The notes under the pieces: model-generated
What the model saw: the letters and a program-made list of their open reading frames with translations, nothing else
What the model was told of the DNA's origin: nothing
Databases searched by the model: none
Shown: piece after piece, positions 19,403 through 26,655 of the stretch
Numbering within the stretch: the first letter of the stretch is position 1
Layout of the letters: every line of letters begins with the position of its first letter
Made by a program: the position numbers and the translations under genes
Source of the DNA: Candidatus Poribacteria bacterium
Lineage (GTDB): Bacteria > Poribacteria > WGA-4E > WGA-3G
Reading direction: 5' to 3'
Length of the DNA: 64,000 nt
NCBI GenBank assembly: GCA_022821965.1
Contig: JAJECN010000010.1
Span: 1-64,000, forward strand

Positions 19403-22400
19403 TTATTCCATCACTCCTACCCACACTTCTTCTCCAAGCGAGATGTGAAATAGACCGCGTTGTTCAGTAGCGATGTAAAGTCTGTCGTTGCTAACAATGA
19501 GGGATATAACTTTACCCGGAACTTCTGGAGAAATCTGTTGCCATTCGGTTTTCAAGCGATAGACCCCCGTATCGCCAGCACCATAAACCGTGGTACTATT
19601 TATAGCGAATCGGTCTATGACAATACGTGTACCCATTGTATCGGTTATCACGCGCCAGTCTTCTCCATTCTGTGAGGATAAAACGCCTTTATTAGTTGCG
19701 ACGTAAACCGTTCCGCCTGCAAAGACTATCTCGTTGAAATGCGTAAAGCGAAGCGGAAGACTTGATGTAATGTCCTTCCAACTGTCTCCACCATCAAACG
19801 ATTGAAAGAGTTCACCATTCCGTTTACCCACATAGACAATTTCTGCTGCAACCGCTAACTTGAACCCTTTATCCAATTCGCCATCAGGTTGTTCACTAGT
19901 ATCTATCAATCCTGTGTTTCGCCATTCCCGCTTATCGGGTTTCCACTTGAAAAGCCGTCGCTGGCATTCCATGTAGAATGCCCCGTCACTGACAGCAAAT
20001 CCTCCAGCTTCCCAATGTTTTTTCCTAAAATACAACGTAACCGGTAGACTGTCACCTTCCTCAGGATCATCAGCGAAATGCTCCTGTTTCACTTCTTCAA
20101 CGCTCGTCCATAACTCATAGGTTAAGGCTTCTCTTGTCCACACATTAAAGGATGCTGATCGCCTTGCGAAAGCGGGTATCTTGTGAACAGGAACGAACGC
20201 ATCACTATTCAGCGGTAAATGAAAAACGCGTAAGTCGTCCTCTTCAGGTATAATTCCATAAAGAGCGTTGTTAGTTGCTACCAACCTTGAATCAAGCGAG
20301 AAATCGCTTTGAGGCTGCTCCTTTTTTACAGACCTAAGCGTAACGCCGCCCGTATTAACTGGAACGTTTTTCCACGACGTACCCCCGTCAACTGATTGGA
20401 AAACATCGCTGCCGGTGTGCATGTAGAGTCTGTCATTGAACGCCACTAAATCCTGCATTCTGGTACCAGCCACCCCTCTCATAAATGGTCGCCACGATTC
20501 ACCCGCATCAGTTGTCCGATGAACACCGGAGGGACTAACATTGTAAAACGTATTCTCGTCTATTGCTACAGTTGAAAAACTATCCAGCGTAAACAAATTT
20601 CTGTCGAATCCGAGGTGTGTCCAAGTTTGTCCGCCATCCCTTGAGCGTAATTCAGCGACACCGAGCAGCAAAAGGGTCTCACCGTCAACCACAAGTTTTA
20701 TACCTGTTGGTGTTCTCACAAACGGAGACTTATTTTTCGGTGTTATCTCAGTCCACGACTCTCCCAAATCAGTCGAATAGAAAATTTTACTTGAACTCGC
20801 GTTGTAACCACGCACTATTTGCCCGGCATCCTTTAGTCTTGATTCAAGCAGTCCTAAAGTAAAAAGATCGTGACCTGTTACGACATAGAGGTTGTTTTCA
20901 TGACTCACTAAAGAATGAATAACTTCGGATGCAGCCACGGACAATTGCTCCCAAGTGCCTGAATTGAGGCGGTAAAGTCCGGTGTTTGTGCCAGCAAATA
21001 CTGTATTTTCTATCGCAGCTACCGTCGTAATCGTTTGATCTATCAGTCCATTGTTAAGGAGTCTCCACTGTGCACCAGCATCGGTAGAGCGGAAGATGCC
21101 TTTATCTTCAAGGGCGAGATACATTACGGGAAGGGATTGTGATCCGTGTCCTTGTGCCTCATCTGTTATGATCAATCCAATAGCACGCCCCTTTGGTCTC
21201 GGACATAATTCATTCCATGTTTCGCCATCATTCGTTGAAGTAAACACTTCATCAGTAGAGACAATATAGAGAGTATTCTCGAATTCTGCCATAGGCATTC
21301 GGGACTCACTGATTGGAACGCTGGTGTCAATGAGTGCCCATCCAGTTGTCCCATCTGTCAATCTGTAGATACCTGATGATGTAACGGCGTAAACGGTTTT
21401 TTCAGGTGTAACAAAGATATTAAAGGCGTTACCACCTTGAGGTCCATCTGTATGGGTCCACTGTGAAGTAGAAAACTTGGCGGAATCTTCCAGCGTATTG
21501 GCTGCTAAAAATGTCTCAGAAACTTGTAGTCCGTTTCCACTACTTTTACTGGGGATAGAAGCACGTCCAACTTGATTTCGTACAGCTGGTTTTGCATCAA
21601 TATCAAGCGTAATATGGGCATCAATGATTTCAATTGTGGGTTCAGATTGTGCTTCAAAACTATATGGATGTTGAAAACGGGCGAGGTATTGATTGCTAAC
21701 ACCGAGCAATAACAGAATCAAGACGGCAGCTGCGCCAAATGCCGCCCACGGTAGCAGCGGTTTCCCTACCGGAGAGGGGGTCTGTTTTATATCAGCAACT
21801 TGTTGCATAATGCTTTCGGTGAGATTGGCAGGTAAGTGGATACTCCCAAGCGTTTCGCGAATCAAGAGCTGCTCTTCCTTCCGTAAACGCTTTTTCGCTC
21901 GCCGAAGCCTACTTTTAATCGTGTTCACTGACACCCCTAAAAATTTCCCAATCTCTTTTGCTGTCATTTCACCGAGATAGTAGAGTGTCACGACTGTGCG
22001 TTCACTCTCTGGCAATTTTTGGAGCAGCCTTTGGACGATTTCATAATGATGATCAGAGACCTCTGACTCACGTTGCTCCGATATATAATGCGTATAAGAA
22101 GATTGCTCTATCTCTTCGAGTGGGGTGTTTTCCAACGATTGCGTCACCGACGTATTTTTTTCGCGCCAATTAATGCAAAGCCGATTCGCGATGACATAAA
22201 GCCATCCAGCAAACAGATTGGGATCTTTTAGTGTTGCAAGGCTTTTGTATACTCGGAGAAAGGTGTCCTGCGTAATCTCCTCAGCGATATGGAAATCCCC
22301 AATTTTTCGCCATACAAGCGCGTGGACACTTTTTTGGTGCTTCTGGACCAAAATACTGAATGCCTCGTCATCACCTGATAAAATTCTGCGAATCAGTTGA

Positions 22401-22417
22401 ACATCGTTTTCTACCAT
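19403..22417 (-). CDS. ECF sigma factor fused through a membrane span to an Asp-box beta-propeller
   Basis: 1004 residues in one uninterrupted frame; GGAG 7 bases before the ATG. Sigma region 2 is at 7-88 (DEAFSILVQKHQKSVHALVWRKIGDF..FAGWLYVIANRLCINWREK) and region 4 at 125-180 (LPESERTVVTLYYLGEMTAKEIGKFLGVSVNTIKSRLRRAKKRLRK). A single membrane span follows at 221-241, preceded by a basic stretch, so the N-terminus should be cytoplasmic. From 320 to the end there are about eight BNR/Asp-box motifs (STNDGETW, STDAGAQW, STDLGESW, SRDGGQTW, TTDAGESW, SVDGGTSW, SFDGGDSW, SSQNGEDW) of a sortilin/Ycf48-type propeller. A plausible one-protein transmembrane signalling device. It heads an operon with the two secreted proteins downstream (gaps of 31 and 47 bases). 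Confidence 0.9.
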   Translation of the reverse strand: MVENDVQLIRRILSGDDEAFSILVQKHQKSVHALVWRKIGDFHIAEEITQDTFLRVYKSLATLKDPNLFAGWLYVIANRLCINWREKNTSVTQSLENTPLEEIEQSSYTHYISEQRESEVSDHHYEIVQRLLQKLPESERTVVTLYYLGEMTAKEIGKFLGVSVNTIKSRLRRAKKRLRKEEQLLIRETLGSIHLPANLTESIMQQVADIKQTPSPVGKPLLPWAAFGAAAVLILLLLGVSNQYLARFQHPYSFEAQSEPTIEIIDAHITLDIDAKPAVRNQVGRASIPSKSSGNGLQVSETFLAANTLEDSAKFSTSQWTHTDGPQGGNAFNIFVTPEKTVYAVTSSGIYRLTDGTTGWALIDTSVPISESRMPMAEFENTLYIVSTDEVFTSTNDGETWNELCPRPKGRAIGLIITDEAQGHGSQSLPVMYLALEDKGIFRSTDAGAQWRLLNNGLIDQTITTVAAIENTVFAGTNTGLYRLNSGTWEQLSVAASEVIHSLVSHENNLYVVTGHDLFTLGLLESRLKDAGQIVRGYNASSSKIFYSTDLGESWTEITPKNKSPFVRTPTGIKLVVDGETLLLLGVAELRSRDGGQTWTHLGFDRNLFTLDSFSTVAIDENTFYNVSPSGVHRTTDAGESWRPFMRGVAGTRMQDLVAFNDRLYMHTGSDVFQSVDGGTSWKNVPVNTGGVTLRSVKKEQPQSDFSLDSRLVATNNALYGIIPEEDDLRVFHLPLNSDAFVPVHKIPAFARRSASFNVWTREALTYELWTSVEEVKQEHFADDPEEGDSLPVTLYFRKKHWEAGGFAVSDGAFYMECQRRLFKWKPDKREWRNTGLIDTSEQPDGELDKGFKLAVAAEIVYVGKRNGELFQSFDGGDSWKDITSSLPLRFTHFNEIVFAGGTVYVATNKGVLSSQNGEDWRVITDTMGTRIVIDRFAINSTTVYGAGDTGVYRLKTEWQQISPEVPGKVISLIVSNDRLYIATEQRGLFHISLGEEVWVGVME

Positions 22418-24789: not shown

Positions 24790-24819
24790 AAAAAAATAGG
24801 CGAGGTTAAAAACCTCACC
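24790..24819 (-). terminator. Terminator after the YkgJ-type gene, made of a dispersed repeat
   Basis: On the minus strand GGTGAGGT and ACCTCGCC form an 8-bp stem with a 5-base loop, followed directly by TATTTTTTT. The sequence matches the hairpin repeat family also seen at 51835-51859 and (degenerate) 7735-7758. Confidence 0.75.
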
Positions 24820-24850: not shown

Positions 24851-25420
24851 TTACTCTGATAACAATTGAGAGACGAGATAACAGTTCGGCGTTTTTTGGG
24901 TAGCACCGAGTTCTCTACTAAGGTCTTGACACACCCGCCAGTAGCGCGTGTAATTGAGTGGGCGGAATTGGCGGCGTTTTCCGATGAAGGTTTTGTGGCA
25001 GCAGGCTAACTCATTGCTGTTTTGAATTGGGTATCCCCAGACGCGGCAGATGACTGGACGGTGTTCATAAACGGAGCAGACACCACCGATGAGCATAGGG
25101 CATTCGCCTTCAGGGGTGCCTTTGACCACTTCAATCGCTTTCATGCCTGCATCCGGCATTATGTCTTCAGCATCGTAGCCGTGCGCTTTTAATTTTTTGA
25201 TGCTCCGTTCCGCCTTCTGGTGAATATGTGTGCGGAGTTCGGCAGGGAGTGCGTCCAACCCTACCTTCAGATCACGAGCTTCGACCTCACTTATCGCCAT
25301 TGTTGAGGTGTTTCGGCAGCAGGAAAAACAGTCAGAAGGGCACGGCACGCCTCCCGACTCCTCGCGCAAACGTTCAACATCGCGTTGAATTTCATCAACG
25401 AGTTCGTAATACGCTTTCAT
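24851..25420 (-). CDS. YkgJ-family cysteine-cluster protein
   Basis: 189 residues. The cysteines CPSDCFSCCRN near the N-terminus and CPMLIGGVCSVYEHRPVICRVWGYP in the middle match the YkgJ/zinc- or iron-chelating CxxxCxxCC...C-x7-CxxYxxRPxxCRxxG pattern. Members bind a metal or Fe-S cluster; the reaction is unknown. It starts 8 bases after the end of the cold-shock/Sm-like gene, so the two are co-transcribed, and a repeat-derived terminator ends the unit at 24790. Confidence 0.88.
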   Translation of the reverse strand: MKAYYELVDEIQRDVERLREESGGVPCPSDCFSCCRNTSTMAISEVEARDLKVGLDALPAELRTHIHQKAERSIKKLKAHGYDAEDIMPDAGMKAIEVVKGTPEGECPMLIGGVCSVYEHRPVICRVWGYPIQNSNELACCHKTFIGKRRQFRPLNYTRYWRVCQDLSRELGATQKTPNCYLVSQLLSE

Positions 25421-25428
25421 AGCAGCAC

Positions 25429-26379
25429 CTAACCTATGGAAAAGTTGTGGATAGCATGCCGAAAGATAACAACCTTTGCCCCGTTCTCTAAAATGAGCTT
25501 AATCTCATACGGACTGACCCAATCTATAGTCCCGCGAAAGATTTCACCTTCGCGGAGGTGAACCGCAATCGGGGTGCCATTTTTTCGGGCGTTTTGAACG
25601 GCTTCCGTATCAATCTCAGGTGCCTGTGCGTCAGGCGCGAGTTGCGTCAATTGCTGTGCCTTCACAGCGTCATCAATACCAACAGAAGCCTGAACCCTTT
25701 CCGCATCAACATCTTTATAGCAGTATTTAACATCTGTTTTCGCGACGTGCTGTTTCTTTCCATTGCTGTTGAGCGTCAAAGTAGAGAGTGTCATTTCAAG
25801 GACGGTAGCAGGCATCTGCACGTGTTTATACAACGCGAAAAACATAGACGTTTCAAAATTAATCTGCTTGAGAATGTAAAGGTCGCCAAAGCTGAGTTGC
25901 TTTGAAGACGGGGCTTGTTCCTCTCGTGATTGTGCTGTGGAATCGTCAGCATCTCTCGTTGGGGTGTTTTGAGGCTCTGTTTTGGACCCAGAAGGTGCTG
26001 CGGGTGTATTACGGTCTCGGCGACTTCGAACGGGTCTTGATTTATCGTTTTCCTGATTAGTGTCGGTTATTGCCGCATCACTGAGAAGTTGTCCCTGATT
26101 CTGAGCAGGAAAGCCAGCATAACCGCGTGGAATAATTGCCTTTCCCTGCCGCAGCCATCGGCGTTCTGTCGGTGTCAATAATACTTCGACATTTTGGGCA
26201 ACGAGTCCCTTCTCGCCTTCAATAATGTTGTATTTTACGCGCTGCCCGACACGGAGTTCTTCATATTCGGGCTGCTTAATAGCGGAGCTGTGTAAGAAGA
26301 CATCAGCGTCACTGCTATCTTGTGCGATAAACCCGAAGCCTTTATCAAAATTATAATACTTAATCCGTCCTGTAGGCAT
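25429..26379 (-). CDS. Cold-shock domain protein with Sm/Hfq-like C-terminal modules
   Basis: 316 residues; AGGAG 6 bases before the ATG. Residues 1-67 are a cold-shock domain with RNP1 (KGFGFIA) and RNP2 (VFLHSSAI). A low-complexity charged linker (about 85-155) follows. Residues 265-316 (AVHLREGEIFRGTIDW..YEIKLILENGAKVVIFRHAIHNF) have the Sm1/Sm2 pattern of Hfq, including a hydrophobic-K/R-HAI ending like Hfq's YKHAI. Residues about 165-225 (MPATVLEMTLSTLTLNSNGKK..KTDVKYCY) align by eye with the same module, suggesting a tandem. All parts are RNA-binding folds, so an RNA chaperone or translation regulator is likely. Fusion to Sm modules is unusual. Confidence 0.85.
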   Translation of the reverse strand: MPTGRIKYYNFDKGFGFIAQDSSDADVFLHSSAIKQPEYEELRVGQRVKYNIIEGEKGLVAQNVEVLLTPTERRWLRQGKAIIPRGYAGFPAQNQGQLLSDAAITDTNQENDKSRPVRSRRDRNTPAAPSGSKTEPQNTPTRDADDSTAQSREEQAPSSKQLSFGDLYILKQINFETSMFFALYKHVQMPATVLEMTLSTLTLNSNGKKQHVAKTDVKYCYKDVDAERVQASVGIDDAVKAQQLTQLAPDAQAPEIDTEAVQNARKNGTPIAVHLREGEIFRGTIDWVSPYEIKLILENGAKVVIFRHAIHNFSIG

Positions 26380-26626
26380 TATATGCTCCTGTGGTCTTGT
26401 CCCTTTTCAGACGGGTGACGTTAACCATTCGCGTTCCTGCGCGAGCATTCCTTTTTTTACAAGGGGAGCCTGTGAGCGGGTCCCCAAATCTGTCAGAGCC
26501 GTTCAACTGTTGTAACCTCGCACACTTCAATGTATCCGAGCAACCGTTGGATCACAACTCCTTATTATATAAAGTACCAGAAAGCCATACACTTAATTAA
26601 TAGCACTGCAGAATGTAAGGTTTTTC

Positions 26627-26655
26627 TTGACACAACACTCTCGCTCTTTTATAAT
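26627..26655 (+). promoter_or_regulatory. Consensus promoter of the amidohydrolase
   Basis: TTGACA (26627-26632) and TATAAT (26650-26655), both perfect, 17 bases apart. The leader to the ATG at 26813 would be about 150 bases. Confidence 0.8.

Follow-up and report, generated by a model that had tools for sequence, protein, structure and literature searches.

A poribacterial protein that joins a cold-shock domain to two predicted Hfq-type Sm domains

Among the general RNA chaperones of bacteria, Hfq and the cold-shock proteins (Csp) are the two best known, and each has been studied as a small protein in its own right. Tandem Hfq proteins are already known. In LIN28 and the Y-box proteins the partners of the cold-shock domain (CSD) are zinc knuckles or basic tails, not Sm domains. 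We analyzed a 64,000-nucleotide stretch of DNA (hereafter the window) from a member of the Poribacteria, a bacterial group first known from sponges. A first-pass annotation of the window, made from the sequence, had described one gene as a CSD fused to one or two Sm/Hfq-like modules and had noted no standard family with this order, which holds within Pfam and NCBIfam. CSD and Hfq domains are each already known; we searched the open-access literature for a CSD-Sm-Sm chain, for tandem Hfq and for poribacterial Hfq or cold-shock proteins, and in those open-access papers found no published description of a CSD-Sm-Sm chain.

The gene reads from an ATG to a stop codon at 25429-25431 on the minus strand and encodes a CSD followed by an extension that is conserved, a linker that varies and two predicted Sm domains of the Hfq type, referred to here as SmA and SmB. 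Its features are as follows.

25429..26379, minus strand: the CSD-SmA-SmB protein, 316 amino acids, conserved at full length in relatives
26179..26379, minus strand: cold-shock domain, residues 1-67 (PF00313, dN/dS, RNP1 and RNP2)
26089..26178, minus strand: conserved extension after the CSD, residues 68-97, beginning LTPTERRWLRQGKAIIPRGYAGFP (alignment, dN/dS)
25900..26088, minus strand: variable linker, residues 98-160, probably disordered (dN/dS, pLDDT, length variation)
25675..25899, minus strand: SmA, the predicted first Sm domain, residues 161-235 (predicted topology, fold matches, match to L093, dN/dS)
25432..25611, minus strand: SmB, the predicted second Sm domain, residues 257-316, with the Sm2 motif FRH (PF21979 and PF17209, PDB Hfq match, model)
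26386..26390, minus strand: AGGAG, the likely ribosome-binding site (read from the sequence and from the alignment of relatives)

The sequence CAGGAG ahead of the start codon is kept in nearly all aligned relatives. We considered whether the arrangement might be a chance fusion or a misassembly, and ruled this out because the architecture is conserved in dozens of independent assemblies.

We found that both segments proposed as Sm/Hfq-like in the first-pass annotation are borne out by predicted folds, fold matches and profiles; a prediction with no Sm fold in either segment would have argued against that proposal, and both are predicted to fold as Sm. An AlphaFold2 model of the full protein, built from an alignment of 34 relatives (A1), contains a helix followed by five strands twice, at residues 164-222 and 258-315, with block pLDDT values of 72-94 from residue 181 onward and of about 85-94 over most of SmB. 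The predicted elements of SmA are a helix at residues 164-171 and strands at 178-183, 187-196, 200-205, 208-213 and 217-222. Compared with the PDB by Foldseek, the whole model matched Hfq proteins best, with a best E of 3.1e-4 and a target TM of 0.88. Since that search had possibly aligned SmB only, we folded residues 156-250 alone, which left the topology unchanged at a mean pLDDT of only 65.6. The best 50 PDB matches of SmA alone were all Hfq or an archaeal Hfq-like protein (probability 1.00, target TM 0.61-0.80), with a best E of 3.7e-3 and none below 1e-3.

Sequence profiles pointed to the same assignment. Residues 259-312 of SmB matched Hfq_1 (PF21979) at 26.6 bits against a cut-off of 27 (E 6.4e-6), and in the genome search SmB reached 29.7 bits, above that cut-off; the match to Hfq (PF17209) was 22.1 bits against a cut-off of 27 (E 1.2e-4). 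The SmB profile also matched Hfq among PDB sequences, with a best E of 3e-6. SmA alone matched no Pfam family and its profile found, among PDB sequences, Hfq only at E 0.51, so that the case for SmA from sequence depends on intermediates, together with structure. One such intermediate is a 96-amino-acid free-standing Hfq of a distant Poribacterium (L093), which exceeds the cut-offs of both Pfam families, Hfq and Hfq_1, and which aligned with the SmA profile at a score of 44.8 and an E of 2.6e-9 (hhalign). Two further single-domain Hfq-type proteins, one over the cut-offs (L199) and one just under them (L194), align with the tandem profile over its SmA half. A profile-profile comparison of SmA with SmB found nothing on a shallow alignment; on a diverse alignment it gave a score of 21.4, above the maximum of 15.8 among 60 column shuffles (mean 10.0, sd 2.3), and in the same register as an earlier by-eye alignment of the two segments. 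Together, the models and profiles indicate two Sm domains in the CSD-SmA-SmB protein, not one.

The CSD claimed in the first-pass annotation is identified by PF00313, with a match over residues 3-65 (E 1.7e-19, 69.9 bits against a cut-off of 27). Its motifs RNP1 (KGFGFI) and RNP2 (DVFLH) fall in invariant alignment columns, and AlphaFold modelled the domain poorly (pLDDT about 30-58). With 316 amino acids and two further domains, the protein is not a stand-alone CspA-type Csp of about 70 amino acids. The extension at residues 68-97 is largely invariant in the 34-sequence alignment and is present in related families too, and the linker has a pLDDT below 50 and differs in length between relatives. 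We calculated pairwise dN/dS for the gene of the window against five relatives. The CSD was the most constrained part (0.00-0.01), followed by the extension (0.00-0.06, from the four comparisons with usable dS), SmA (0.03-0.25) and SmB (0.11-0.67, the top value coming from the closest pair, which has few changes), and the linker gave 0.49-1.27. The CSD, SmA and SmB are thus under purifying selection and the linker is near-neutral; folded parts that are kept around a drifting linker are the pattern expected of tethered domains that work together.

We asked how widely the architecture is distributed. We searched 40 related genomes and scanned a named genome collection, and the full-length relatives that this gave were all from Poribacteria. 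Among 85 poribacterial genomes searched, 56 of the 59 that belong to the family of the window (f1) contain the full-length gene; of the exceptions, G002 has a 22-residue piece at a contig end only, and the assemblies of G004 and G018 are without it. Thirteen Poribacteria outside this family also contain it (G024-G030, G032, G033, G035-G037 and G039), and some deeper poribacterial families (e.g., G038, G046 and G048) have Sm-Sm without a CSD, their N-termini being rich in Arg or Gly. When we ran the tandem profile over about 300 further genomes outside Poribacteria, a CSD followed by Sm-Sm was found in both of the genomes sampled from another phylum (L186 in G126 and L185 in G271), and Sm-Sm with no recognised CSD in G181, G178 and G154. 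A 538-amino-acid Sm-Sm frame in G181 (L184; 230-1843, minus strand) continues into a stretch resembling the ParB N-terminus, where the match is weak (17.7 bits, under the cut-off). No plasmid record carries the whole architecture. These data indicate that the CSD-SmA-SmB architecture is real and old.

We next considered whether free-standing counterparts accompany the gene. In the genome of the window (95% complete) the gene is the sole CSD match, and the only Hfq-type matches are the gene itself and a 277-amino-acid paralogue (L001; 1471-2301, minus strand, G000:C10) with the same tandem Sm region and an N-terminal part that reads as KOW- or Tudor-like. A check for a separate hfq, which the first-pass annotation had suggested, found no free-standing Hfq in this genome. 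Across the family, the matches of the phylum search included no free-standing frame of Hfq size. The family also showed no free CSD frame except one of 80 amino acids at a contig edge (G055), and five single-contig genomes (G005, G009, G021, G070 and G084) agree with this absence. Outside the family, most poribacterial genomes have a free Csp of 65-109 amino acids. Because the genomes are mostly draft MAGs, the absence of free hfq and csp genes is strong, not absolute. Within the family, the CSD-SmA-SmB protein seems to replace a separate Csp and a separate Hfq.

We then compared the Sm residues with those of Hfq, using the E. coli Hfq residue numbering and mapping positions onto SmA and SmB by hand from alignments. 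In this hand mapping, SmB F306-R307-H308 and Y291 stand at Hfq Y55-K56-H57 and F42, R265 and K266 stand at the rim positions R16 and R17, and D257, V288, H274, I280 and R282 replace Q8, F39, Y25, K31 and Q33, respectively. Since these last five positions are changed, the ligand preference of SmB may differ from that of Hfq. SmB retains the motif FRH[AG] in most members, even where overall identity falls to about 30%. In SmA the Sm2 position reads AKT and then VKYCYK, so that the Sm2 lysine is kept and the histidine is absent.

Our data suggest, as the reading that we favor and hold to be likely, that the CSD-SmA-SmB protein is a composite housekeeping RNA chaperone that does the jobs of both Csp and Hfq, perhaps as a ring. 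The Sm domains would assemble into this ring, possibly from three chains that form a six-domain pseudo-hexamer like that of Hfq. SmB would bind U-rich RNA ends through FRH, because the uridine-binding proximal site and the rim are partly kept, and SmA, being without the Sm2 histidine, would have a chiefly structural role or a different specificity. Tethered by flexible linkers, the CSDs would act beside the ring, melting secondary structure there and binding mRNA that is single-stranded. One chain would then do what a free CspA and a free Hfq do separately elsewhere, and this would explain the apparent absence of the free proteins from the family. The KOW-like paralogue described above counts against this reading, as it could carry out Hfq-like work too.

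The Sm-Sm module is also found at or near the C-terminus of other poribacterial proteins; in the most divergent of these the call rests on SmB or on the tandem profile. GmrSD type IV restriction enzymes carry Sm-Sm without a CSD (L098), with a C-terminal CSD (L100 and L103) or with two CSD stretches (L191); two more proteins, GmrSD-type by sequence likeness only, carry it with one or more C-terminal CSD stretches (L104 and L193). For a restriction enzyme of the GmrSD type, which acts on DNA, a tail that binds RNA is unexpected. Sm-Sm likewise follows a sacsin/TmtA ATPase (L099, and L102 by sequence likeness to L099 only), a UvrD helicase with GIY-YIG and GrpE (L101 and L192, the latter also with S1), a predicted RNase H-like exonuclease (L095) and, with a CSD after it, three S1 domains (L190). 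Its attachment to such different proteins would fit a module that serves mainly for assembly or localization, either as a ring scaffold or for docking to the ribosome, an RNase or RNA polymerase, with the CSD alone handling RNA; we consider this unlikely, and we give the same low probability to its corollary, that the protein is a multimerised RNA melter or antiterminator of the CspA/CspE type. The missing Sm2 histidine in SmA, the change of most known Hfq contact residues in SmB and the position of the CSD as the most constrained part agree with such a role. Against it, the retention of FRH[AG] in most SmB domains suggests a ligand site, and ring assembly and RNA binding go together in Hfq proteins.

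Within Poribacteria, the proteins to which Sm-Sm, and sometimes a CSD, is fused include GmrSD, TmtA/sacsin and GajB-like helicase proteins, which raises the question of a network for defence or nucleic-acid surveillance, where Sm-Sm would recognise RNA that is foreign or damaged, and the form with the CSD would act as a regulator or decoy. We regard this as improbable: nearly every genome of the family has the CSD-SmA-SmB gene, which lies among conserved neighbours and is under strong constraint, whereas defence genes are usually patchy, and PADLOC detects only a CSD profile in the protein.

The surroundings of the gene comprise three further features.

24851..25420, minus strand: YkgJ-type CxxCxxCC metal-binding protein (PF03692; conserved position)
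24799..24819, minus strand: terminator-like hairpin with a 9-pair stem and a T run, after the YkgJ-type gene (consensus scan only)
26428..26448, minus strand: conserved leader element ATGCTCGCGCAGGAACGCGAA, 49-69 nucleotides upstream of the start (alignment of upstream regions)

The downstream partner named in the first-pass annotation is marginal by score (PF03692, 23.3 bits against a cut-off of 23) and conserved by position. It begins 8 nucleotides downstream of the CSD-SmA-SmB gene on the same strand, and is the next gene downstream, with the same orientation, in all 35 of the related loci with a full gene; it is probably the operon partner of the CSD-SmA-SmB gene. Three loci from other families keep it, and six (L063-L068) show none within the short stretch covered. 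In most loci where the contig reaches, DUF971-like and ferredoxin genes are found beyond it on the opposite strand, and mtnA-like and amidohydrolase genes upstream (all of these names read from the sequence). A redox- or metal-linked RNA regulator acting with the YkgJ-type protein, with SmA C220 as part of the sensor, would make use of this partner, of the adjoining DUF971-like and ferredoxin genes and of the invariance of C220 in the 34-sequence alignment, but is very improbable, as the YkgJ-type gene was not found beside the gene in those six short stretches and some members at a greater distance have M or Y in place of C220.

The leader element was also tried as a simple conserved short upstream ORF, and this was rejected: several relatives have a different frame there or one that ends after three codons. 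Read as a hairpin, the element is also broken in some relatives, and an Rfam search of the locus gave a chance match only. A consensus scan placed a sigma-70 promoter sequence with 12 of 12 matching positions (TTGACA, 17 nucleotides, TATAAT) at 26627-26655 on the plus strand, upstream of the divergent amidohydrolase gene. Elsewhere in the window, a 1004-amino-acid ORF (19403-22417, minus strand) reads by eye as an ECF-type sigma factor with a predicted membrane segment and beta-propeller-like repeats.

Returning to the composite RNA chaperone that we favor, we propose tentatively, and at somewhat short of even odds, a broader picture, in which Csp and Hfq became, in this lineage, a single essential ring that chaperones RNA and bears cold-shock arms, the free form of each was lost, and the tandem Sm region is used again on defence nucleases and helicases as a general tail for targeting RNA. 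With Csp and Hfq joined and apparently no free copies, the family offers a natural test of how the two activities cooperate. Our data further suggest that two unlike domains in tandem can make up an Sm ring. That restriction enzymes and helicases also carry Sm-Sm suggests a portable tail for RNA binding or assembly, which would link RNA chaperones to phage defence. Our data also give a likely role to a gene that is near-ubiquitous in the group and whose SmA is missed by current family libraries.

Compared with described systems, the protein stands closest to several at once. The Sm fold predicted for SmA and SmB is that of Hfq (PF17209, TIGR02383) and the cyanobacterial-type Hfq-related proteins (PF21979, NF047718). 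Like Hfq, SmB keeps the Sm2 pattern (FRH for YKH), an aromatic residue at position 42 and the rim Arg/Lys; unlike Hfq, there are two Sm domains per chain with a CSD ahead of them, SmA is without the Sm2 histidine and many distal-face residues are changed. At 22.8 bits against a cut-off of 61.7 for the Hfq equivalog TIGR02383, the protein is, by profile score, outside the NCBIfam Hfq equivalog family. The tandem Hfq model PRK14091 (NCBIfam, 176 positions), for proteins with two domains per chain and both copies close to Hfq, scored 16.2 bits against a cut-off of 270; two Hfq domains per chain would be shared, but PRK14091 is without a CSD, and SmA and SmB are only distantly related. With the CspA family (PF00313) the protein shares a CSD with RNP1 and RNP2, but a free Csp has about 70 amino acids, and here 30 conserved residues extend the CSD and two Sm domains follow. 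As in LIN28 and the eukaryotic Y-box proteins, a CSD stands on one chain with further RNA-binding parts. To judge from these sequence comparisons, the CSD-SmA-SmB protein may combine Hfq-like with CspA-like working and have RNA preferences of its own.
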